A stretch of 52,358 nucleotides of DNA from a virus. Made by a program: the position numbers and the translations under genes. Below, piece by piece: positions 2,244-16,392 of the stretch. The notes beneath the pieces were generated by a model. That model did not search any database. It was not told the DNA's origin and saw only the letters and a list, made by a program, of their open reading frames with translations. How positions within the stretch are numbered: the stretch's first letter is position 1; each line of letters opens with the position of its first letter. The DNA lies in the IMG/VR virus record IMGVR_UViG_3300043419_001551, positions 1 through 52,358 of that record; one strand, written 5' to 3'.

Positions 2244-3278
2244 ATGACGAAGACACCCCCATCCGCCTTCGACCTTACCCTTTTCTCCTCCATCTTCCGC
2301 CTGGAGGGCGTGCCGAAGAAGGCGTCGTGGGCGGACCTCGTCGCGGCCTTCGGCACGCACCTTCGCGCCCCGGACAAGACCGAGGTCCCCGGCTTCGGTC
2401 CTTACGTCCTGCAAGACCGGGCGTGCGACCGGCCGAGGCATCCGAAGACGGCACACCGCTGTGACGCCTGCGTGGACGCGGTCAGCCTCGCCGTGTTTGA
2501 CGTGGACTGTGGCACCTATGCCGAGGTCGAGAAGTGCGACCGCTTGCTCGAAGGCTACGCGAGGCTCTGGTACTCCTCGCACTCCTACCGACCGGAGGCG
2601 GCAAAGCCATCCCTTCGTCTCATCGTCCCGCTGGCCTCGCCCGTGCCGGCCGAGCGGTGGGCTTCCTGGCGGTCGAACTTCATCCAGGCCTTCCACGTCC
2701 CCGCGGACCCGAAGAAGTGCGGCGGTCTCTCGCACTTCTACTACGCGCCGAGCTGTCCACCTTCAGTCGAGCCCGTGGCCGTGCAGCACGAAGGCCCGTA
2801 CTTCGACCCCGAACACATCCCGTCCGTGGCCTACCGACGTACCGGCGTTGCCCTCGTCGAGCGACGGCCCGTCGACCCGTCCGCCCCGGACGAGGACCGG
2901 CTCCAGCACATCCGGGGGCGTCTAAGTCAGACCGTCTCGGGCCTGAAGCGGTCCGGCAAGCCCGACGCGACCGAACGCCGCGCGGCCCTAGAGGCACTTC
3001 TCGCGGGCCGACCGCTAGCCGAGAAGGGCTCCCGTAATCAGACGACCACCCGCGTCGTGTTCGACCTCGTGCGTAGGTTCGAGGACCTGACGCTGGGCGA
3101 GTGTCTTGCGGTCGTCGGCCCGTCCCTCGAAGCCATGCAGTCCGCCGGCAGCAGCCTGACCGAGGAGCACGTCACCCGGATGTACGAGACCGCCCGCTTC
3201 AAGCTGGAAGCCCAGCGAGAGGCCGACGCCCGAATCGAGGCGTTACTGCGCGAGCGGCTGGGCCTTCCGCCGCTCTAG
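2244..3278 (+). CDS. AEP-type (PrimPol-like) DNA primase
   Basis: 344 residues from the ATG at 2244; an upstream TTG at 2208 is possible. It shows the archaeo-eukaryotic primase core: FDVD at 85-88 supplies the first metal-binding aspartates, SSHSYRPEAAKPSLRLIVPL at 111-130 the basic strand, and GLSHFYYAPS near 151-160 the later motif. The C-terminal 140 residues are helical and charged. A replicative SF3 helicase gene follows within 100 bp, the usual pairing for phage and plasmid initiation modules. It probably makes primers for the phage polymerase, perhaps at an origin nearby. Confidence 0.82.
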   Translation: MTKTPPSAFDLTLFSSIFRLEGVPKKASWADLVAAFGTHLRAPDKTEVPGFGPYVLQDRACDRPRHPKTAHRCDACVDAVSLAVFDVDCGTYAEVEKCDRLLEGYARLWYSSHSYRPEAAKPSLRLIVPLASPVPAERWASWRSNFIQAFHVPADPKKCGGLSHFYYAPSCPPSVEPVAVQHEGPYFDPEHIPSVAYRRTGVALVERRPVDPSAPDEDRLQHIRGRLSQTVSGLKRSGKPDATERRAALEALLAGRPLAEKGSRNQTTTRVVFDLVRRFEDLTLGECLAVVGPSLEAMQSAGSSLTEEHVTRMYETARFKLEAQREADARIEALLRERLGLPPL

Positions 3279-3360
3279 CCACAGTCCATAGACATCAAGT
3301 TTGACGACCTTGACGAAGCCATCCTGCGTAGGGCAGGGTGGCCGTCCTCCCGAGGGGTTC

Positions 3361-4755
3361 ATGAGCACACCGTCCGGCACCGTTTCCGACGTCGAAGAAG
3401 CCCAGTTCCTACAAGCGGTGGGGGAGTTCGCCTACTCGGTACCCCATGAGAAGTACATCTACCGGAACCTCGGCAAGTGGCAGGACGGCACGCCCGTCAC
3501 CGAGAGGGGCATCCGGCAGTTCCTCCTTGCCCGCCACTACCCGCCGGACGTGGTGGACATGGTCATCGGCAAGGGCTTGTACCACCGTGCGCTCTCGCTC
3601 GAAATCCTCCCGAACGAGCCGCCGGTCGTTCGCACCCCCTCGGGCCAGTGCGTCATCAATCTCTGGTCCCCGCCGCGCTACACACCGGCCAACACCGCCG
3701 GACCCATGCCGCGCATCGAGACCTTGCTCCGGTGGCTGACGTTCTGCCCGATCAACGACCCGACCGAGGAGCAGCTCGAAGGCTTCCGGTGGGTGCTGCA
3801 CTGGATGGCCCGCAAGATTCAGAACCCCGCGCTGCTGGCCATGGTGGCCCCTATCTTCGGCACCGAGCCCGGAGCGGGCAAAGGCACCCTCTACAACATC
3901 ATCGCCCTGATGCTGGGCGAGGATAACTGCGAGATCGTCGACCGCTCGCAGCTCGAAAGCAAGTACACGCCTTGGGCCAAGGCGCTCTTCGTCTTCGGCG
4001 ACGAGATCAAGAGCCACGACAACCAGAAGGACGTTGAGGAGCGGCTGAAGTTGCTCATCGCCTCACCGAAGATGATGGTCGAGGTCAAAAACGTCAACGC
4101 CATGACGCTTCCGAATAGGAAGGCATGGATGTTCGCCTCGAACGACAAGATCAGCCCCATACGCATCGAGCCCAACGACCGCCGGTACAGTTACTTCAAG
4201 AACCACACGCCGGTCACCAAGGCGTATCGAGCGCTCCTCCGGTCCTGCTACCTGCCGGACGGCACGGGCTTTGAGCCGTCGTTCATCGAGGAGGTCCGGT
4301 CTTTCTGGCGGATGCTGCTGGACTTGGAGGTCGAGCTCCCCTTCGCCTCGGACCCGTTCCGAAACGAGTCCCGTCAGGCCCTCGTCTCGTCGAGCCATTC
4401 CGCCCACGACGTCTTCACCCAGAGGCTCGAAGAGGACGGCATCGACGCGCTCATCGACGATCTGCTCGACTCCCCGAAGGGTCTCAAGTTCCGCGGCGAC
4501 CAGAACCGGAAGGAATGGGATTTCGGAGACAAGGGCATCGCCAAGGCCGTGGTGTACGAGGCGTACAGGGTTCACTGCGAGGCGGAAGGTCGCCACGCCA
4601 TGTCCGCCAATCGCTTCGGACCGGTGCTTCGGTCCATCGACGGCGTGGTCGAAGGGCGGCACTGGGCACCGAGCGGAAAGAACGTACGGGTTTGGGTCCT
4701 TCCGAGACTCGTCGCCAAGCGAGGGGTCGACGACGGGCAGTGGGACGCAGCTTGA
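3361..4755 (+). CDS. SF3-type replicative helicase / primase partner
   Basis: 464 residues from ATG 3361, chosen for the GAGGGGTT ribosome site; a TTG at 3301 would add 20 residues. Walker A is GTEPGAGKGT at 167-176, Walker B ALFVFGDE at 208-215, and the motif C sensor MFASND at 257-262, followed by an arginine-finger candidate in PNDRRYSYF. This is the D5/DUF5906-type helicase found with AEP primases. The N-terminal 130 residues are a separate helical domain. Its role is hexameric unwinding at the fork or origin. Confidence 0.88.
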   Translation: MSTPSGTVSDVEEAQFLQAVGEFAYSVPHEKYIYRNLGKWQDGTPVTERGIRQFLLARHYPPDVVDMVIGKGLYHRALSLEILPNEPPVVRTPSGQCVINLWSPPRYTPANTAGPMPRIETLLRWLTFCPINDPTEEQLEGFRWVLHWMARKIQNPALLAMVAPIFGTEPGAGKGTLYNIIALMLGEDNCEIVDRSQLESKYTPWAKALFVFGDEIKSHDNQKDVEERLKLLIASPKMMVEVKNVNAMTLPNRKAWMFASNDKISPIRIEPNDRRYSYFKNHTPVTKAYRALLRSCYLPDGTGFEPSFIEEVRSFWRMLLDLEVELPFASDPFRNESRQALVSSSHSAHDVFTQRLEEDGIDALIDDLLDSPKGLKFRGDQNRKEWDFGDKGIAKAVVYEAYRVHCEAEGRHAMSANRFGPVLRSIDGVVEGRHWAPSGKNVRVWVLPRLVAKRGVDDGQWDAA

Positions 4756-4763
4756 ACGAGGGC

Positions 4764-4793
4764 TTGACGAATAAAGGACACTCGACGTACTAT
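4764..4793 (+). promoter_or_regulatory. Sigma70-like promoter candidate
   Basis: TTGACG at 4764-4769 and TACTAT at 4788-4793 are separated by 18 bp in the 100-bp gap after the helicase gene. The -10 box is part of CGTACTATCC (4786-4795), which is repeated about 50 bp downstream, just before the next ribosome site. It would drive the gene at 4856 and the nuclease/helicase genes after it. Confidence 0.5.
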
Positions 4794-4855
4794 CCGCCTC
4801 GTTCCGCTCGGTACAGGGCCGAAACGGACATCACCCGTACTATCCCGAGGGAATC

Positions 4856-5176
4856 ATGATCAAGCACCACGACCCCGAGTTCGAGACCGTCATCGACAAC
4901 GCCCCGCCCCGCTTCGGCCGCATCCGGTGGTTCCTCGTCCGCCGCCTGCTCGCCGCTCTGAACCTCGTCGAGGGGCGCTTTCAGCGTCTTCGCGAGTGGG
5001 CGCTTCAGGAAGCCGTGGAGTCCAGCCCCGACTTCGACACCTTCGAGGCGTGGGTCACCGAGCACTACGCCGCTCGTGGCCGGAAGGTCACGGTCGACGT
5101 CATCAAGGCCGTGGTCCCGCCGGTCGTCCCGACCCCGCCGCCGACGCAAGCCAACCCCTCGACGTGGGTTGACTAG
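4856..5176 (+). CDS. Hypothetical protein, 106 aa
   Basis: ATG after CCGAGGGAATC. The sequence is charged and helical up to about residue 75 (FGRIRWFLVRRLLAALNLVEGRFQRLREWAL), then ends in a Pro-rich tail (VVPPVVPTPPPTQANPSTW). There is no recognisable domain. It stops one base before the nuclease ATG, so the two are probably co-translated. Confidence 0.72.
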   Translation: MIKHHDPEFETVIDNAPPRFGRIRWFLVRRLLAALNLVEGRFQRLREWALQEAVESSPDFDTFEAWVTEHYAARGRKVTVDVIKAVVPPVVPTPPPTQANPSTWVD

Positions 5177-6962: not shown

Positions 6963-8639
6963 ATGGGCGGGTTCGCGGTTCGGCCTTCCGTTGAGCTGGA
7001 CCGCGTCGTCGGCCTGCCCCGCCGGCAGGCGAGCGTCTCCGACAAGGAGACCGAAGCCCTGCACGAGGACCTGTGCCTTCCGAACGGGACTCGAAGGCTC
7101 CGGCCTATCCAGGCGCTGGCCCTCACCGAAGCTCGCCGGTCGAACGGTCTCTTCGGCCCCATCGGCGTGGGTGCGGGCAAGAGCGATATCGCCCTTCTCC
7201 TGCCCGTGGTCATGAAGGCCAAGGTCGCGGTGCTACTCGTGCCGGCGAACCTGCGGGAGAAGGTCTTCCAGCAAGACTACCCGCTCCTCGTGCAGCACTA
7301 CCGGATGCCGAGGCTCGCGAACGCGAAGGTCCTTGCGCTTGGCGCAGAGTGCGTGCTTCACGTCCACAGCTACAACGAGCTGTCGAGCGCGAACAAGCAC
7401 GACCTCCTCGAACAGATACAGCCCGACCTCATCATCTGCGACGAGGCCCACGCCCTTCGTCACCCGTCCGCAGCCCGTACCCGTAGATTTCTGAACTACT
7501 TCCGCGCCCATCGGGACACGCGCCTTTGCGTGCTCTCGGGGACCATGACGAGCAAGTCCATCAAGGACTACGCGCATCTGGCTTGGCTGTCGCTCAAGGA
7601 CAACGCCCCCATCCCGACGAAGTGGGCCGTCCTCGAAGAGTGGGCGGCGGCTCTGGACTCGGGACCGGTGCAAGCCCCGCCGGGCGCGCTCGTCAAGCTG
7701 TGCCGCGATGGCGAGGCCGTTCGAGAGGGGTTTCAGCGTCGCGTCGTCGAGACCCCGGGCGTCATCGCCACGACCGACAACGCGCTCGGCAACGGTCTCG
7801 TCTTCTCGGAGCGCCCGCTCAAGGCCCCACCCGAGGTGCGAGAGGCGCTCAAGACCATGCGCGAGACGTGGACGACACCGGACGAGGGCGAGGCGTTCGA
7901 CGACATCTTGACCCTGCACCGGTACGCGAGGCAGCTTGCCGCAGGGTTCTACTACAAGTGGGTGTGGCCGAAAGGTGAACCGCTACAGGTACGCACGTCA
8001 TGGCTCGACGCCCGCAAGGCGTGGAACCGCGAGGTCGCGAACTTCTTGACCTACCGGGCCAAGCCGGGCATCGACTCGCCGCTCCTGCTCGCAAAGGCGT
8101 GTGCCGACGGTCGGGTGTCGTCCATGAACTACGAGCGGTGGGCGGCGCTTCGAGACACGGCCAAGCCAGAGGTCGAGGCCGTGTGGCTCGACGACTACCT
8201 TGTGGACGATGCCGTGGCGTGGGGGAAAGAGGCCGTAGGCATCGTGTGGTACGAGCACGCCGCCCTCGGGGTTCGCATCGCCGAGAAGGGCGGGTTCCCG
8301 CTTTTCGGGCCGGGAGCGGACGGCATCCTGAAGGAGCGAGGAACAAGAACCATCGTCGCCTCCATCAAGGCCCACGGCACCGGCAAGAACCTCCAGTGCT
8401 ACAGCCGAAACTTGGTGACGACCGCGCCCACGTCGGGTACGGTTTGGGAGCAGCTACTAGGCAGAACCCATCGACCTGGGCAGCAGGCCGACGAGGTCAC
8501 GATAGACGTCTACCGCCACACGCTAGAGATGCGTGGGGCCATGACGAAAGCACTGAGGGACGCGAACTACCAAGAGAGCACGACCGGCAACCGGCAGAAG
8601 CTGCTGGCGGCAACCTACACCTTCCGAGACGAGAACTGA
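6963..8639 (+). CDS. SF2 (SNF2/DEAH-type) DNA helicase
   Basis: 558 residues from ATG 6963, which has GGGAGGCG upstream. Motif I is GPIGVGAGKS (65-74), motif II DEAH (160-163), motif III LSGT (191-194), and motif VI GRTHRPGQ (500-507). The THRPGQ form is typical of SNF2-like ATPases, which translocate on or remodel DNA. The frame stays open upstream to 6693, and residues encoded at 6849-6962 look protein-like, so the true N-terminus may lie further upstream (see the 6641 gene). It lies between the nuclease and the dNTP genes. Confidence 0.87.
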   Translation: MGGFAVRPSVELDRVVGLPRRQASVSDKETEALHEDLCLPNGTRRLRPIQALALTEARRSNGLFGPIGVGAGKSDIALLLPVVMKAKVAVLLVPANLREKVFQQDYPLLVQHYRMPRLANAKVLALGAECVLHVHSYNELSSANKHDLLEQIQPDLIICDEAHALRHPSAARTRRFLNYFRAHRDTRLCVLSGTMTSKSIKDYAHLAWLSLKDNAPIPTKWAVLEEWAAALDSGPVQAPPGALVKLCRDGEAVREGFQRRVVETPGVIATTDNALGNGLVFSERPLKAPPEVREALKTMRETWTTPDEGEAFDDILTLHRYARQLAAGFYYKWVWPKGEPLQVRTSWLDARKAWNREVANFLTYRAKPGIDSPLLLAKACADGRVSSMNYERWAALRDTAKPEVEAVWLDDYLVDDAVAWGKEAVGIVWYEHAALGVRIAEKGGFPLFGPGADGILKERGTRTIVASIKAHGTGKNLQCYSRNLVTTAPTSGTVWEQLLGRTHRPGQQADEVTIDVYRHTLEMRGAMTKALRDANYQESTTGNRQKLLAATYTFRDEN

Positions 8640-8641
8640 CC

Positions 8642-10291
8642 ATGACGACCTCGATGTCCCCGTTCGCCAAGAGCATCTACCTTGCGAAGTACGCAGCCCG
8701 TGACGAGGCCGGCGAGCTGGTCGAGACCGACTGGTCCGAGACCGCCCGCCGCGTCGTCCCGACCGTACTCGCGGCCCTCGGCTACGGCCCCGAGTCCGAC
8801 GAGGTTCGCGATCTCACGAGGCTCGTCGAAGACCGCAAGTTCGTTCCCGGTGGCAGGTACCTCTACGCGACCGGCAAGGACTATCACCAGACGAACAACT
8901 GCCTTCTGCTTCGGGCGGACGACAGTCGCGAAGGCTGGGCCGACCTGTTCCATAAGGCGGCGATGTCCTTGCAGACCGGCGCAGGCATCGGCGTGGACTA
9001 CTCGGCCGTGAGGGCCAAGGGCGCGCGTATCAAGCGCACGGGCGGCATCGCCTCGGGTCCCATCGAGTTGATGAAGGCCGTGAACGAACTGGGCCGCAGC
9101 GTCATGCAGGGCGGCAACCGCCGGTCGGCCATCTGGGCCGGTCTCAAGTGGAGCCATCCCGACGTCTTCGACTTCATCCACCTGAAGGACTGGCCGCAGT
9201 ACATCCGAGAGGCGAAGGAGAAGGACTTCAACGCTGTCGCGCCGATGGACATGACGAACATCAGCGTCCTTCTCGACGACGAGTTCTTCGCTGCGTACCA
9301 CGACGCGGGTCACGAGAAGCACGACCTTGCGAAGAAGGTCATGGTGGTCACGACCAAGCAGATGTTCATCACAGGTGAACCCGGATTCAGCGTAAATCTA
9401 GGAGAAAACGTTAACTCTACACTTAGAAACGCGTGTTGCGAGGTAGTGTCGGAAGACGACTCCGACGTGTGCAACCTCGGAAGCATCAATCTCGCTCGTG
9501 TGACGAGCCTTGAAGAGATGCGTCAGGTCACCCGCCTCGGCACCCTGTTCCTCCTCGCGGGTACGAAGTACTCGGACGTACCGTACAGCAAGGTCGCCGA
9601 GACCCGTGCGAAGAACCGCCGCCTCGGCCTCGGTCTCATGGGCCTGCACGAGTTCCTCGCGGTGCGGGGCCTGAAGTACGAGCCTTCCAAGTGGCTGGGC
9701 GAGTACCTCGTCGAGTACGCGAATAGCGGCGAGTACGCGAAGAAGTACGCGATTCAGCACGAACTCTCGGTCCCAATCGCGACTCGCGCCATCGCCCCGA
9801 CCGGAACCATCGCCATCGTGGCCGAGACGACCACGGGCATCGAGCCCATCTTCTGCGTGGCCTACAAGCGGCGCTACCTCGACGCCGGCAAGGTCTGGAA
9901 GTTCCAGTACGTCATCGACCCCACGGCTCGGAAGCTCGTCGAGCAGGGTGTCGATCCCGATGCCATCGAAGACGCCTACACCTTGTCGCTGGACATGGAG
10001 CGGCGGGTGAAGTTCCAGGCTTGGCTTCAGACCTTCGTGGACATGAGCATCTCGTCCACGATCAACATGCCCGCCTGGGGTACGCCCGCGAACGATGAGT
10101 CCATGCTGGCCGAGTACGAGCGCATTCTCATCCAGTACCTCCCGAAGATTCGCGGCATCACCGTCTACCCGGACGGCGCTCGCGGTGGTCAGCCTCTTTC
10201 CCCAGTCGCGTACTCGGTCGCTGCCGGTAACGAAGGCGTCGTCTTCGAGGAGTCGGACGAGCGTTGCCTCGGAGGCGTCTGTGGGGCCTAA
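8642..10291 (+). CDS. nrdJ: Adenosylcobalamin-dependent (class II) ribonucleotide reductase
   Basis: 549 residues. It has the redox cysteine in NNCLLL (Cys87), the N-x-C-x-E radical site (Asn263, Cys265, Glu267) and the partner cysteine in DVCNLGSIN (Cys277). The C-terminal CLGGVCGA supplies the shuttle cysteine pair. There is no small-subunit (NrdB) or activase (NrdG) gene in the window, which fits a class II enzyme using vitamin B12 and needing no oxygen. It reduces ribonucleotides for phage DNA synthesis. The ATG lies two bases after the helicase stop, and the next gene overlaps its last 11 bp. Confidence 0.92.
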   Translation: MTTSMSPFAKSIYLAKYAARDEAGELVETDWSETARRVVPTVLAALGYGPESDEVRDLTRLVEDRKFVPGGRYLYATGKDYHQTNNCLLLRADDSREGWADLFHKAAMSLQTGAGIGVDYSAVRAKGARIKRTGGIASGPIELMKAVNELGRSVMQGGNRRSAIWAGLKWSHPDVFDFIHLKDWPQYIREAKEKDFNAVAPMDMTNISVLLDDEFFAAYHDAGHEKHDLAKKVMVVTTKQMFITGEPGFSVNLGENVNSTLRNACCEVVSEDDSDVCNLGSINLARVTSLEEMRQVTRLGTLFLLAGTKYSDVPYSKVAETRAKNRRLGLGLMGLHEFLAVRGLKYEPSKWLGEYLVEYANSGEYAKKYAIQHELSVPIATRAIAPTGTIAIVAETTTGIEPIFCVAYKRRYLDAGKVWKFQYVIDPTARKLVEQGVDPDAIEDAYTLSLDMERRVKFQAWLQTFVDMSISSTINMPAWGTPANDESMLAEYERILIQYLPKIRGITVYPDGARGGQPLSPVAYSVAAGNEGVVFEESDERCLGGVCGA

Positions 10292-10958
10292 TGAACCTAA
10301 CGACAAGGACGCCGCTCTCGACCGGCTGAAGCATCGACCGACCGAGAAGGAAACGGACGCCGGCCTCGTCGGCCGTCCGACACCGGCCTTCGTCGGCGAA
10401 GCCAAGGCGTTCTCCATGCCTCCGCCGCCCACGAACTCGTCGAAGACGACCGTCGAGGAGATGGGCAAGATTCGGCGAATGCTCAAGGACCTGAGCGACG
10501 CTCAGATTTTTCGCATCCGACACGAGGATAGGCCGGACGTCGAGACCTTGTTCGTCGAGCTGCTCGAAGAGTACGGCTTCACGGTCACAAAGCGACTCCG
10601 TAAGGAATTGGACGAACTCGCCAAGCAACTTGCGACCATCGGGTGGCACTACAAGACTCGATTCAAGAGGATGCGGCCGCAGGAGTGGCTCAAGCACAAG
10701 CGGTTCAAGACCATCCTTCCGCCTTCCAAGACCGCGAACTCGCCGTCCTACCCGTCGAACCACGCCCTTATCGGGGCGTTCTTGGCAAAGTATCTCGGTG
10801 AGAAGTTCCCGAGAGCAAAGCCCACGCTCGACGAGTTCGGCCGGCAGGTCGGCTGGAACCGGGTTCGGGCCGGATGGCACTGGCCTTCGGACTACGCCAT
10901 GGGGCGGCAACTTGCCGAGCACCTGTGGAAGCACTTTGACGAGAAGGGGATCAAGTGA
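10281..10958 (+). CDS. Soluble PAP2/acid-phosphatase-like protein
   Basis: 225 residues from GTG 10281, preceded by GGAGG and overlapping the RNR end. The three PAP2 motifs are present: K-x6-RP (Lys115 to Pro123), PSNH (148-151) and R-x5-H-x3-D (Arg184, His190, Asp194). I see no membrane helices, unlike most PAP2 lipid phosphatases. It lies between RNR and ThyX with overlaps on both sides, so it may dephosphorylate nucleotides (inference). The first 60 residues are charged and low-complexity. Confidence 0.75.
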   Translation: MGPNEPNDKDAALDRLKHRPTEKETDAGLVGRPTPAFVGEAKAFSMPPPPTNSSKTTVEEMGKIRRMLKDLSDAQIFRIRHEDRPDVETLFVELLEEYGFTVTKRLRKELDELAKQLATIGWHYKTRFKRMRPQEWLKHKRFKTILPPSKTANSPSYPSNHALIGAFLAKYLGEKFPRAKPTLDEFGRQVGWNRVRAGWHWPSDYAMGRQLAEHLWKHFDEKGIK

Positions 10959-12332: not shown

Positions 12333-12434
12333 ATGATTTCAAAGATTTGGCGAGCGCTCTTTCCCAAGGCGCTGACCGAAGAGCAGAAGCGGTTCGCGGT
12401 GCTGCTGGCTGTGTCATGTGAGCGTGTGCGATGA
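12333..12434 (+). CDS. 33-aa peptide gene coupled to DNA polymerase
   Basis: ATG after CGAGGGTGACC. It encodes MISKIWRALFPKALTEEQKR and 13 more residues, with an amphipathic N-terminal helix. Its TGA overlaps the polymerase ATG (ATGA), so its translation would couple to polymerase synthesis. It is either a leader peptide or a small protein; no family is recognised. Confidence 0.5.
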   Translation: MISKIWRALFPKALTEEQKRFAVLLAVSCERVR

Positions 12435-15301
12435 GAGTCGTCGCCTTCGACACCGAGACTCATCTCATCCAGCCCGGTCTTCTCACGCCGAAGCTCGTGT
12501 GCGTGTCGGTAGCTGATGAAAACGGCGTATGGCTGCACGACCGGCGCTACGGCACCGACTACGTCGAGATGCTGCTCGGTGACCCCGATGTCGCGCTCGT
12601 CGGCCACAACGTCGCCTATGACCTCGGGGTTCTATGCGCTCGTCGTCCCGAGCTGATTCCTCTCGTTTTCCAAGCCTACGAGCAGGGCCGCATCTGGGAT
12701 ACCAAGGTCCGTCAGGAGCTCCTCGACATCGCCTCCGGTCGTAGCCAGCGCAACGGTGCGACCTTCGCACTCCGCAACGGCGAGTGGGTCAAGGCAGGCT
12801 ACTCGCTCGCCGGTCTTGCCGGTCACTACCTCGGGAAGGACCGCTTCGCCGAGAAGACCGATGAGAACGCCTGGCGGATGCGCTACCACGAGCTGGAAGA
12901 CGTGCCGCTCGACCAGTGGCCCGTCGAGGCGACGGCCTACGCCAAGGAAGACGCCGAGGACACGCTCGCCATCTTCCTGAAGCAGGGCGGCGTGGACGGG
13001 GCAGTACCCACCGAGCAGGAACAGGTCCGAGCGGCGTGGGCGCTGCACCTCATGAGCGTGTGGGGCGTGCGAACCGACGCGACCTCGGTGGCGGACCTCG
13101 AACAGCGACTCCTCACCGAACAGGCCCGTCTTCGCAAGCGAGTCATTCAGGCCGGCATCCTCGTTCCCAAGCGCGTCCCCGAAGACGAGGCCGAGTTCCA
13201 TGAAGAGGTCACGAAGCGTCGGAAGGCCACGAAGAAGGACCTTCAGCCCGCGCTCGACGGCTCGACGCCGGAGATTGAGTACGAGGACGGTGTTCCGTAT
13301 GTCGTCACGCGGACCACGGTCCCGATGCGCTGGGCGAAAGACAGCAAGAAAATCGAGGCGTACACCCAGCGTTACCTGACCCGTCGAGGCATGGACGTCG
13401 AGCTGACGGCGACGGGTCGCGTGAGCACAGCCAAGGACACGCTCAAGCAGACCGGCTCGCTGCTTCTCGACCTCGTGGCCGATGGCGGCGGCGTGGACAA
13501 AGTGCTCGGCACCTACGTTCCGGTGCTGAAGGACGGCACGCAGCGGCCCATCAACGCGCGGTTCAACGTCCTCGTGAACTCGGGCCGGACGAGCTGCGTC
13601 TCGGGCGACACGCTCGTTCGCACGAGCACTGGCTACAAGCCGATGCTGGCCGTTCAGATTGGCGATCTCGTTTGGACGCACAAGAACCGCTTCCGTCCCG
13701 TGACGCGGTTCCTGCACCAAGGCATCAGGGACGTTGTGGAACTGACGTTTAGCAACGGGAATGTTTTGGTTTGCACAACAGACCATAGGCTGCTAGGCTC
13801 CGATGGACGGTGGGTTACCGTCGAGGAGCTTGTCAATGAGCATCAGCAAGAAGTGGGTTGCGGACCCAGAGAATCAGGCCAAGGCTACAAAGCTGTATCG
13901 CGAAACGTCGAAGACGATGCAGGAAATTGCGGCCGAGCTTCAGACGACGCTACACAACGTCGGGGCGGTTCTAGATCAGTACATCCCGCCGCAGGAAAGG
14001 CAGCGGCTTGCGTCAGTTCGGTATCATCTGTCGAAGGTCGGCAGCAAGAATCCGATGAAGGGCAAGACTCGCGAGCAGCATCACAACTGGCTCGGAGCGG
14101 TGGACGACGGCTACGGTTATCTGACCATCCTACACGAGGGGAAGAGGCAGTTCGTGCATCGGATTGTGATGGCTCAGGCACTGGGGTTGGCGGAACTGCC
14201 CGAGGACCTTGCGGTGCATCACATCGATGGGGACAAGAAGAACAACAGTCTGGACAATCTGGCCTTGGTCACGAAGCGCGGACATCGGATGATTCACACG
14301 CTTCAGAAGACAACAACCGAGGAGTTGTTCTTGAAGCGTGCCACCATCGGGGAAGCCATGAAGTATTTGACCTCACAGTCTTAGACGACGAGAGTTACGA
14401 GGCCATGGGACTGTTTTCCCATAATTGCTCTCTTCCCAACCTCCAGAACCTCCCCTCGGGTCGAAAGGTCGGCGGGACTCGGGAGTGCTTCGTCCCCCGC
14501 GACGGCTACGTCTTCGTGTCGGTGGACTACGACACGCTGGAGCTCCGCGCTCTCGCTCAGGTCTGCCTGACGTTGTTCGGCAAGAGCGAGATGGCGGCTA
14601 GCATCAACAACGACCGCGACCTCCACTCGCAGGTCGGCGCGACGATGCTCGGCATGACCTACGAGGACGTCGAGAAGGGGAAGAAGGTCAAGGGTTCTCC
14701 AGCCAAGACCGCCCGAGATGCCGCCAAGGTCTTCAATTTCGGCGCTCCCGGTGGTCTCGGTGCCGCGTCCCTAGTCGACTACGCCCGTGCTGGCTACGGG
14801 GTTACCATCAACGAGCAGCAGGCCCGGGAGATGAAGGCCCAGTGGCTCAAGGCGTGGCCGGAGATGGTGACCTACTTCGAGTGGGTCAATCATGCCGTAG
14901 GCTTGGGCGAGGCGGTCCTGCGGCACCCTATCACCGGCTTCGTTCGCGGGGATGTGGGCTACACGGACGGCTGTAACCACCTGTTCCAGCACCTCGCCGC
15001 CCAAGGGGCCAAGAGGGCGCTCTTTCAGGCGGCACTCGAAGCCTACGCCGACCCGACCTCGGCCTTCTACGGGTCGCGTCCGGTGGTCTTCGTTCACGAC
15101 GAGATCATCGCCGAGGTGCCAAAGGACCGTGCCGCCGCCGCTTCAGCCCGTTTGGCGCAGATTATGTGCGCGAAGATGGCCGAAATCATCCCCGACGTGA
15201 AGATCACTGCCTCGCCCACGCTCATGCACTACTGGACGAAGGACGCCGTTGAAACCTACGACGCGAACGGAACGCTGATTCCGTGGGAGAAGACCCGATG
15301 A
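12431..15301 (+). CDS. polA: Family A DNA polymerase, interrupted by an intein
   Basis: 956 codons, about 679 after removal of the intein. The 3'-5' exonuclease domain has D7/E9 (FDTET), N60/D64 (GHNVAYDLGV) and a YAKEDAED motif. The polymerase domain has motif A DYDTLELR (from Asp699), motif B at 762-771 (R-x3-K-x2-NFG) and motif C VHDE (888-891). The intein sits between Ser388 and Cys666, immediately before SLPNLQNLP. That segment is the conserved family A sequence preceding motif A, a typical intein site in an essential active-site region. The TGA overlaps the clamp ATG. Confidence 0.93.
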   Translation: MRVVAFDTETHLIQPGLLTPKLVCVSVADENGVWLHDRRYGTDYVEMLLGDPDVALVGHNVAYDLGVLCARRPELIPLVFQAYEQGRIWDTKVRQELLDIASGRSQRNGATFALRNGEWVKAGYSLAGLAGHYLGKDRFAEKTDENAWRMRYHELEDVPLDQWPVEATAYAKEDAEDTLAIFLKQGGVDGAVPTEQEQVRAAWALHLMSVWGVRTDATSVADLEQRLLTEQARLRKRVIQAGILVPKRVPEDEAEFHEEVTKRRKATKKDLQPALDGSTPEIEYEDGVPYVVTRTTVPMRWAKDSKKIEAYTQRYLTRRGMDVELTATGRVSTAKDTLKQTGSLLLDLVADGGGVDKVLGTYVPVLKDGTQRPINARFNVLVNSGRTSCVSGDTLVRTSTGYKPMLAVQIGDLVWTHKNRFRPVTRFLHQGIRDVVELTFSNGNVLVCTTDHRLLGSDGRWVTVEELVNEHQQEVGCGPRESGQGYKAVSRNVEDDAGNCGRASDDATQRRGGSRSVHPAAGKAAACVSSVSSVEGRQQESDEGQDSRAASQLARSGGRRLRLSDHPTRGEEAVRASDCDGSGTGVGGTARGPCGASHRWGQEEQQSGQSGLGHEARTSDDSHASEDNNRGVVLEACHHRGSHEVFDLTVLDDESYEAMGLFSHNCSLPNLQNLPSGRKVGGTRECFVPRDGYVFVSVDYDTLELRALAQVCLTLFGKSEMAASINNDRDLHSQVGATMLGMTYEDVEKGKKVKGSPAKTARDAAKVFNFGAPGGLGAASLVDYARAGYGVTINEQQAREMKAQWLKAWPEMVTYFEWVNHAVGLGEAVLRHPITGFVRGDVGYTDGCNHLFQHLAAQGAKRALFQAALEAYADPTSAFYGSRPVVFVHDEIIAEVPKDRAAAASARLAQIMCAKMAEIIPDVKITASPTLMHYWTKDAVETYDANGTLIPWEKTR
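13595..14425 (+). other. Intein within DNA polymerase (277 aa)
   Basis: Block A starts at Cys389 (CVSGDTLVRTSTGYKPM) and block B is VLVCTTDHRLL. C-terminal block F is HEVFDLTVLDDESYEAMG and block G ends FSHN before Cys+1. All residues needed for standard class 1 splicing are present: Cys1, the block B Thr and His, the penultimate His, the terminal Asn and the Cys nucleophile. Between blocks B and F the polymerase frame is low-complexity (Ser/Gly/Gln/Arg/Ala) and matches no endonuclease type. The same DNA in the +1 frame encodes an HNH endonuclease. No LAGLIDADG or HNH motif exists in the intein frame. Confidence 0.9.
13836..14384 (+). CDS. HNH homing endonuclease, nested out of frame inside the intein
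   Basis: 182 residues in the +1 frame relative to the polymerase. It has its own GAGGAG ribosome site 8 bases before ATG. The N-terminal part has a helix-turn-helix pattern (TMQEIAAELQTTLHNVGAVL). The HNH domain runs from GYGYLTILH (about 94) through VHRIVM (His108) to HHIDGDKKNNSLDNL (128-142) and RGHRMIH. It probably cuts intein-less polymerase genes to spread the element. Its last codons overlap the DNA for intein block F. The DNA here is less GC-rich than the flanking exteins, which fits transfer. Confidence 0.87.
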   Translation: MSISKKWVADPENQAKATKLYRETSKTMQEIAAELQTTLHNVGAVLDQYIPPQERQRLASVRYHLSKVGSKNPMKGKTREQHHNWLGAVDDGYGYLTILHEGKRQFVHRIVMAQALGLAELPEDLAVHHIDGDKKNNSLDNLALVTKRGHRMIHTLQKTTTEELFLKRATIGEAMKYLTSQS

Positions 15302-16392
15302 AGATCATCGTGAAGAAGACCGACCTTGCCGCCATCCTGCACCGTGCCACGACCGTGACCGAGACGAAGGCTACCATGCCCATCCTCTCGGCGGTCCTGC
15401 TGGAGGACATCGGCGACGGCATGACCGTCCGGGCCTACGACCTCGAGGTCGGGTACTTCGGCTTCGTCACCGGCGAGGTGTCGAAGCCCGGTAAGGTTGC
15501 CGTGAACGCGAAGACTTTGGGCGAGGTCGTCAAGGGCTTGCCCGAGGCCACGGTCACCTTGTCGGCTGAGAAGAACCGGCTCGTCGTGACCTCGGGCGGC
15601 AGCGAGTACCGGCTGTCGACCTTGTCCGCCGAGGAGTACCCCGCGCTGCCCGAGAAGTCGGACGGCATCGACTTTCGGCTAAAGGCCCGCGACTTCGCCT
15701 CGGTCCTCGGTCGGGTCGGCTACGCTCAGTCCACCGACGAGACGCGCTACTCGCTTAACGGCACGCTGCTCGAAGGTGCGGACGGCGTTCTCGGGACCAC
15801 GGCGACGGACGGTCACCGGCTCGTCCACTCGGGCCTGCGGTGCGGTGCTCCCGACTTCAAGGGCGTCATCGTCAGCCGCAAGACCACCCGCCTCCTGCGG
15901 TCCATCCTCGACACGCTCGGCGAGACCGAGGTGTCGGTGACCGTGAGCGAGAACGCCATCGCGCTCGACACGGAGCACGAGCGGGTCGTCGCTCGGCTCA
16001 TCGACGGCGCGTACCCCGACTACGTTGGCATCTACCCCGAGACCGAAGCCAAGAGCACGCTCGACGTGAAGGAGCTGTCGTCGGTGCTCGGTCGTCTCAA
16101 GGTCGTCTCCGACTCGACGAAGTGGACCGTGGGCGGCGGCGTGGTCAAGTTCCGAGCCTTCGACCCCGACCTCGGGGAGGTCGAGGATTGGATGCACCAC
16201 GGCAACGACGCCAAAGACGTGACCTTCGGTGTGAACGGGGCCTACATTCGCGAGGCCGTGTCGGTCGTGACCGGCGGGTCGGTGGACGTGTTCTTCCCTG
16301 CCGACGACCTCACGCCGGTCGTCCTGCGGTACCCGGGGCTGTCCGATGGGCTGGAGGACTACGCCATCGTCATGCCCATGCGGGTGAAGTGA
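15298..16392 (+). CDS. dnaN: Sliding clamp, DNA polymerase III beta-like
   Basis: 364 residues, normal for a three-domain bacterial beta clamp. It shows the DnaN signatures MPILSAVLLED near the N-terminus, GTTATDGHRLVHS in the middle, VVARLIDGAYPDY, and the C-terminal YAIVMPMRVK that closes the protein-binding pocket. The start at 15298 overlaps the polymerase stop (ATGA). It is the processivity factor for the adjacent family A polymerase. The window holds no clamp loader, so host loader use is likely. A second clamp-like gene lies at 51039. Confidence 0.93.
   Translation: MKIIVKKTDLAAILHRATTVTETKATMPILSAVLLEDIGDGMTVRAYDLEVGYFGFVTGEVSKPGKVAVNAKTLGEVVKGLPEATVTLSAEKNRLVVTSGGSEYRLSTLSAEEYPALPEKSDGIDFRLKARDFASVLGRVGYAQSTDETRYSLNGTLLEGADGVLGTTATDGHRLVHSGLRCGAPDFKGVIVSRKTTRLLRSILDTLGETEVSVTVSENAIALDTEHERVVARLIDGAYPDYVGIYPETEAKSTLDVKELSSVLGRLKVVSDSTKWTVGGGVVKFRAFDPDLGEVEDWMHHGNDAKDVTFGVNGAYIREAVSVVTGGSVDVFFPADDLTPVVLRYPGLSDGLEDYAIVMPMRVK

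Follow-up and report, generated by a model that had tools for sequence, protein, structure and literature searches.

An HNH nuclease gene overprinted on a DNA polymerase intein in a family of environmental phage sequences

Can a mobile intein carry its nuclease in a different reading frame of its own DNA? The question is raised by the family A DNA polymerase gene (polA) of IMG/VR virus record IMGVR_UViG_3300043419_001551, of which the whole 52,358-base stretch was analyzed (the window, to which positions refer). An earlier note on this DNA had described an intein in the polymerase frame and an HNH endonuclease gene in the +1 frame of the same bases, and had taken the layout to be unprecedented. 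Our analysis confirms that this overprinted layout is real, conserved and under selection, and that it is much broader than reported. The element is very probably a mobile intein whose splicing and homing activities are encoded in overlapping frames instead of in one fused polypeptide.

Two proteins from one stretch of DNA

The window polA gene is a single uninterrupted open reading frame (ORF) of 956 codons, at 12431–15301, and the intein within it has the boundaries GRTS^CVSGDT...GLFSHN^CSLPNLQN (carets mark the junctions; see Table 1 for coordinates). In Pfam, the polymerase frame matched Hint_2 and, at 2e-6, Intein_splicing, the latter below the curated cut-off, while the NCBIfam model intein_Nterm scored above its cut-off (29.6 vs 24.5 bits). 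All class-1 splicing residues are present. Pfam found no endonuclease in the polymerase frame, and the in-frame linker encodes nothing recognisable. The HNH gene, with an HNH_3 score of 51.9 bits against a cut-off of 24.8, covers the linker DNA in the +1 frame and terminates inside block F. On each of these points, namely the open polymerase frame with its splicing residues, the linker without an in-frame endonuclease, the +1 HNH gene with its GAGGAG site, and the HNH stop within the DNA for block F, the earlier note was borne out.

Modeling with AlphaFold (AF2) and 33 sequences predicts a confident Hint fold for the intein, in two parts joined by a disordered linker: the per-residue confidence (pLDDT, predicted local distance difference test) was 94–98 for residues 1–80 and 93–97 for residues 251–277, and mostly 31–53 for residues 88–240. 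The top Foldseek matches of this model were DnaB and DnaE mini-inteins, with E values of about 5e-7 to 1e-5. The window element thus shows what characterizes a class-1 Hint intein, namely the splicing residues, an in-frame insertion in a conserved motif, an intein-less allele (described below) and a Hint fold.

In the mechanism that we propose, the polymerase frame would be translated into a PolA precursor, from which the Hint domain (residues 1–87 and 241–277, separated by the linker of ~150 residues) would splice itself out to leave intact PolA. The same mRNA would be entered internally at 13836 by way of its own Shine–Dalgarno site, yielding a free-standing HNH nuclease that would nick or cut intein-less polA at or near the conserved GRxSS..PNLQ motif. 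Repair would then copy the intein and its nested gene into the cut alleles. The HNH protein would be kept by selection, and selection for splicing would need only a stop-free, soluble shadow frame. The analysis shows the layout, its conservation, the avoidance of stops, the enrichment of ribosome sites, the clean empty site and the fold predictions; protein splicing, internal initiation, nuclease activity and homing of the window element are well-founded inferences.

A family of overprinted loci and selection on the two frames

HNH-protein searches of IMG/VR and GTDB contigs, together with loci found by intein profile, gave a family of 34 distinct loci, including the window, that have no polymerase-frame stop over the whole HNH gene (140–195 codons) and in which this frame belongs to a long ORF. 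Outside the family, HNH relatives have at least four polymerase-frame stops over any substantial match, and mostly 15 to 33, leaving aside a few very short or truncated matches. The HNH frame is +1 relative to polA in every member. The host frame of each of the 33 complete members encodes an intein of 258–299 residues, reading C...HN followed by Ser or Cys. All are inserted at a single site in family A DNA polymerase, GRxS^(S/C)..PNLQ, with a slide of at most about one codon either way. Among these 33 sequences, C1, H64 (block B), D259 (block F), H276 and N277 are invariant and T61 is at least 90% conserved; in 31 of them, the HNH stop falls within the final 50 nucleotides (nt) of the intein, where blocks F and G are encoded. 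The presumed catalytic residues of the HNH protein (H128, N137, N141 and H154) are invariant in the 34 loci. The insertion point shifts among three adjacent codon boundaries of GRxSS, as seen on comparing L057, L058, L060, L071, L076, L078 and L079 with L002, L003 and L112. One member, L125, comes from outside the virus collection; it lies on a 108-kb contig of a Salinibacterium metagenome-assembled genome, possibly a phage, and has the same layout. Two loci considered as frame variants were rejected: the HNH of L080 is of the intron type and sits at SxP^N, and L063 is another locus, which is rearranged.

The earlier note had allowed that an assembly or sequencing error might have shifted an ordinary in-frame HNH intein, and in-frame HNH inteins do occur at this polA site. 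However, the same +1 layout recurs in the 34 distinct loci and in nine more that were found independently, through the intein end alone, and an error is therefore excluded. It is refuted for the family, and the avoidance of T described next also speaks against it; we give such an error next to no probability. The note had likewise asked after relatives with the HNH in frame: nine distinct in-frame HNH inteins were found at the site, all of another lineage and none in the window's clade.

The polymerase frame had been claimed to be forced to remain stop-free across the linker, and this was seen clearly. As a null model, codons were shuffled among positions of the same amino acid, keeping protein and codon usage. 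For the window HNH gene, 7.2 polymerase-frame stops were expected on average and none was observed, and none of 2000 shuffles was stop-free; over the 34 loci, 225 stops were expected from shuffling and none was observed. The signal is a local one: of the family codons able to end in T, 0/545 do so before AA, AG or GA, compared to 992/1907 elsewhere, whereas in related control HNH genes T is used in 482/693 cases before these dinucleotides and in 952/1394 elsewhere.

Divergence within the family was too high for a proper two-frame dN/dS (nonsynonymous to synonymous rate ratio), and codon-position counts and stop avoidance were therefore used instead. Among pairs with at least 60% HNH identity, substitutions in the overlap at the first, second and third codon positions of the HNH frame were 0.26, 0.19 and 0.48, while the N-terminal splicing region gave 0.33, 0.28 and 0.55 in the polymerase frame. 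The slow positions of the overlap are thus those of the HNH frame, the outcome of a comparison that the earlier note had proposed; the overlap therefore evolves as an HNH gene, with the linker protein as a by-product. This pattern, together with the invariant HNH residues, makes it very improbable that the HNH is a dying gene and that the open polymerase frame alone is under selection. Such a reading could point to L165, where the intein ends near position 10756 and most of the N-terminal part of the HNH has been deleted, while a 155-aa intein frame and the splicing residues are intact. L165 would be the decay stage expected of a homing cycle.

A Shine–Dalgarno match of at least 4 nt precedes the HNH start in 25 of the 33 relatives, compared to 187 of 1325 (14%) start codons elsewhere in the +1 frame of these polA genes. 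The HNH frame is also open for ~39 nt upstream of its ATG (13797 to 14384), which would provide a short zone for +1 ribosomal frameshifting, and all HNH might then be produced fused to the N-terminal region of the intein, the frame being restored later, as in a recoded in-frame intein. We consider this improbable. The start codon stands at the conserved N-terminus of the HNH protein and the ribosome site in front of it is enriched, whereas a return to the polymerase frame is impossible after the HNH has ended at its own stop; a conserved slippery site was not seen on inspection, although no dedicated search was made.

Several points weigh against a mobile intein with an overprinted nuclease. 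The 34 loci were sorted by the criterion of having no stops, a selection to be borne in mind; they were gathered by similarity, and the split from the controls is sharp, with no intermediate class. Eight of the 33 HNH starts lack a 4-nt Shine–Dalgarno match, one of these being a fragment at a contig edge. A sequence profile search of the PDB with the HNH protein gave no match at 0.01, and its best PDB fold match, I-HmuI, was weak (E 0.027, probability 0.99). Finally, the clade is carried almost entirely by environmental virus contigs, and no cultured isolate of it was found. Of 50,697 phage records, none was matched by blastn with polA, and tblastn with the HNH gave only distant matches, the best full-length ones ~40% identical and those inspected intron-borne. 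Because more than 40 distinct phage sequences from the environment share the layout, we regard it as real and long-lived, a means by which a selfish element separates splicing from mobility.

Mobility and a link to group I introns

An empty, cleanly joined site was found in L021, which has an 88% identical PolA and 84% identical DNA. The HNH proteins were more alike than the polymerase domains in 143 of 150 pairs, and HNH divergence followed that of the splicing blocks (rho 0.73) more than that of the polymerase (0.33), a pattern in keeping with intein and HNH moving horizontally as a putative unit. Homing by the HNH is thus hinted at by its patchy presence, by its being more alike than the host gene, and by a target motif common with introns of the I-PfoP3I type.

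A DNA-pattern scan independent of the HNH, aimed at the junction of the intein end with the polA motif, gave 43 contigs, 36 of them distinct. These comprised 19 with an overprinted HNH (one decayed), nine with an in-frame HNH of the other lineage, two with a DUF559 nuclease in the +1 frame, and six others, read from their sequences as one partial contig, mini-inteins and inteins in which a LAGLIDADG-like region lies in frame. The first set of 34 lacked nine of the overprinted HNH contigs. The in-frame HNHs have 32–38 bits of similarity to the window type and 4–14 stops in the +1 frame; such inteins were seen in L126, L140, L142, L149, L150, L151, L156, L160, L161, L162 and L167, where the intein end mostly reads G[IV][CA]VHN. 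The DUF559/Vsr-like nucleases, at L145:8698–9762 (+)/L147 and L152:2154–3098 (+), scored 36.2 and 22.9 bits against a Pfam cut-off of 20.6, and overprinting therefore holds for two unrelated nucleases at the polA site.

The closest HNHs outside the family sit in polA group I introns, those of Pf-WMP3, Dor1, PS3, PhAPEC7 and many environmental contigs, the Dor1 and environmental cases being assigned by sequence only. Most are inserted at SxP^NLQ, 2–5 codons downstream of the intein site and within the same polA motif. The Pf-WMP3 intron was shown experimentally to splice and its HNH to nick; the latter, I-PfoP3I, recognises positions −3 to +11 around the intron site and cuts 4 nt upstream (PMC3428280). 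With such introns close by, the window locus might itself be a group I intron with a fortuitously open frame. The intein is complete, though, and the intron-type relatives mostly carry the 15–33 polymerase-frame stops given above, which leaves this with practically no probability. An RNA intron at the window locus was rejected; Rfam RF00028 gave no match there, a weak test, as the scan was insensitive and likewise missed the known Pf-WMP3 intron. In L068, Rfam placed the core of a group I intron (2233–2525) downstream of the HNH, and in L082 it reported an abiF RNA (4786–4822).

Related HNHs in nearby polA group I introns mean that one nuclease lineage uses two unrelated splicing vehicles. In the HNH tree, which was rooted by midpoint only, a 100/99 branch splits intron-type from intein-type proteins, apart from four long-branch rows whose placement is unsure. 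A single vehicle switch would be enough for this tree, and either direction between intron and intein would be compatible with it. The HNH lineage also present in polA group I introns may have supplied a gene that became established, out of frame, in a mini-intein occupying the same target.

Known systems and other features

Canonical bifunctional inteins resemble the window element in having a Hint domain, a homing-type nuclease between blocks B and F, a conserved site and a patchy presence. They differ in carrying the nuclease in the splicing frame, whereas here HNH_3 was found in the +1 frame only and the nuclease would be a separate protein. The group I introns of SPO1 (I-HmuI) and Pf-WMP3 (I-PfoP3I) also hold a related HNH that is translated on its own inside a spliced element (PMC3428280), those of Pf-WMP3 and Dor1 being 33–40% identical to the window HNH and located in the same polA motif. 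However, they splice as RNA and do not keep the host frame open. Split inteins with free-standing endonucleases, partly Vsr-like (DUF559-type), were reportedly described by Dassa et al. in 2009 as "fractured genes"; in these, the nuclease is likewise said to be separate from the splicing domain, but the host gene is split, compared to one uninterrupted ORF here.

The closest published case is the ShiLan domain/Pacc40 insertion, in which an HNH is encoded out of frame within methylase genes of mycobacteriophages (Arsenault, Gosselin and Gogarten 2025, PMC11855218). Like the window element, it is mobile, is inserted in a phage gene, leaves the host frame free of stops and encodes an HNH in another frame. 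Unlike it, the ShiLan insertion lacks both a recognised ribosome site and an intein splicing domain and is thought to stay in the protein, whereas the window element lies in a polymerase gene and has a full Hint intein, Shine–Dalgarno sites in its family and a +1 HNH ending in block F. Since ShiLan shows that an out-of-frame HNH can be inserted without splicing, the polA insertion might similarly be an HNH in a tolerated loop, with the resemblance to Hint domains of no consequence. This, too, is very improbable, given class-1 splicing residues conserved in 33/33 sequences, the predicted Hint fold, a site within a core polymerase motif, and splicing residues that persist in L165 after loss of the HNH. 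The earlier note is thus adjusted on two points: the layout has a published relative in ShiLan, and it forms a widespread family rather than a singleton.

To judge by its title and by its citation in PMC11855218 for overlapping frames, a preprint of the ShiLan group on the "non-canonical architecture" of actinobacteriophage inteins may already describe inteins with out-of-frame nucleases. The intein in gp15 of the cultured Gordonia phage Barsten (NC_055856; L169) would fall within its actinobacteriophage scope; the polA clade was found only in environmental contigs. The Barsten intein has an antisense 196-aa ORF at 1603–2190 that is LAGLIDADG-like, with a phmmer match of 6e-4 to I-MsoI over a short stretch and no Pfam match. 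MTES_1575/DUF559-type ORFs run antisense to the splicing frame in two further inteins, L122:4079–4816 (−) in 4007–4930 (+) and L123:2927–3658 (−) in 2870–3775 (+).

The window element is a new form of mobile intein, unexpectedly linked to group I introns at the same target, in which the splicing and homing halves are separated without splitting the gene. Losing, keeping or swapping mobility would then leave splicing untouched, and the nuclease could be made in the absence of precursor protein. We lean slightly towards a broader reading, in which overprinting recurs in mobile inteins: the +1 "slot" at the polA site would be filled by HNH or DUF559/Vsr-like nucleases and other inteins by antisense ones. 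Being independent of the splicing frame, the nuclease would be swappable, or could be traded with a group I intron sharing that target, and such swaps would let one lineage switch between RNA- and protein-splicing vehicles. With a target common to HNH-bearing introns, the old question of how introns and inteins come by their endonucleases becomes directly testable, as whether one nuclease cuts the site of both. The more than 40 sequences are also a natural data set on how long overlapping genes are kept, the rule suggested here being that one frame keeps its protein and the other need only avoid stops and stay soluble. For annotators they carry a warning: where the linker of an intein is unexplained, a nuclease may be concealed in a different frame or on the other strand.

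Table 1. Positions of the intein, the HNH gene and their parts within the window polA gene.
Feature	Position	Strand	Evidence
N-extein: family A DNA polymerase, 3'-5' exonuclease domain and first polymerase part	12431..13594	+	Pfam DNA_pol_A_exo1 6.7e-12; ORF common with intein
Intein, polymerase frame, 277 aa, Cys1 to Asn277, then Cys+1	13595..14425	+	Intein_splicing/Hint_2; intein_Nterm; splicing residues invariant in 33 relatives; predicted Hint fold
N-terminal splicing region, residues 1–87, block A at start	13595..13855	+	AF2 pLDDT 94–98 over residues 1–80; family alignment
Block B, T61..H64	around 13775–13786	+	Family alignment
GAGGAG, Shine–Dalgarno site of HNH gene, 7 nt before ATG 13836	13823..13828	+	Sequence; start-site enrichment in relatives
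HNH nuclease gene, 182 aa, 549 bp, +1 frame relative to polA	13836..14384	+	Pfam HNH_3 6e-14; AF2 mean pLDDT 89 (protein alone); conserved in 34 loci
Disordered linker of intein, residues 88–240, shadow of HNH gene	13856..14314	+	AF2 pLDDT mostly 31–53; HNH codon periodicity
C-terminal splicing region, residues 241–277, blocks F and G	14315..14425	+	AF2 pLDDT 84–97 by ten-residue blocks; D259, H276, N277 invariant
HNH stop codon TAG, built from block F codons TTA GAC (Leu-Asp)	14382..14384	+	Sequence
C-extein: polymerase domain, starts CSLPNLQN	14426..15301	+	Pfam DNA_pol_A 5.7e-25; intein-less L021 joins GRTS-CSEPNLQN

The polA of L026 has a second intein, of 333 aa, at another site (NNFYN^C...GN^TPDQG), and the polA ORFs of L036 and L052 are very long (1627 and 2149 codons), which suggests further inserts. 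In the window, a ribonucleotide reductase gene, of the B12-dependent type by Pfam, lies upstream of polA at 8000–10291, and a DNA polymerase processivity factor gene (PHROG 947, 1e-66) follows directly after it at 15307–16392. Portal and terminase genes are located on the minus strand.

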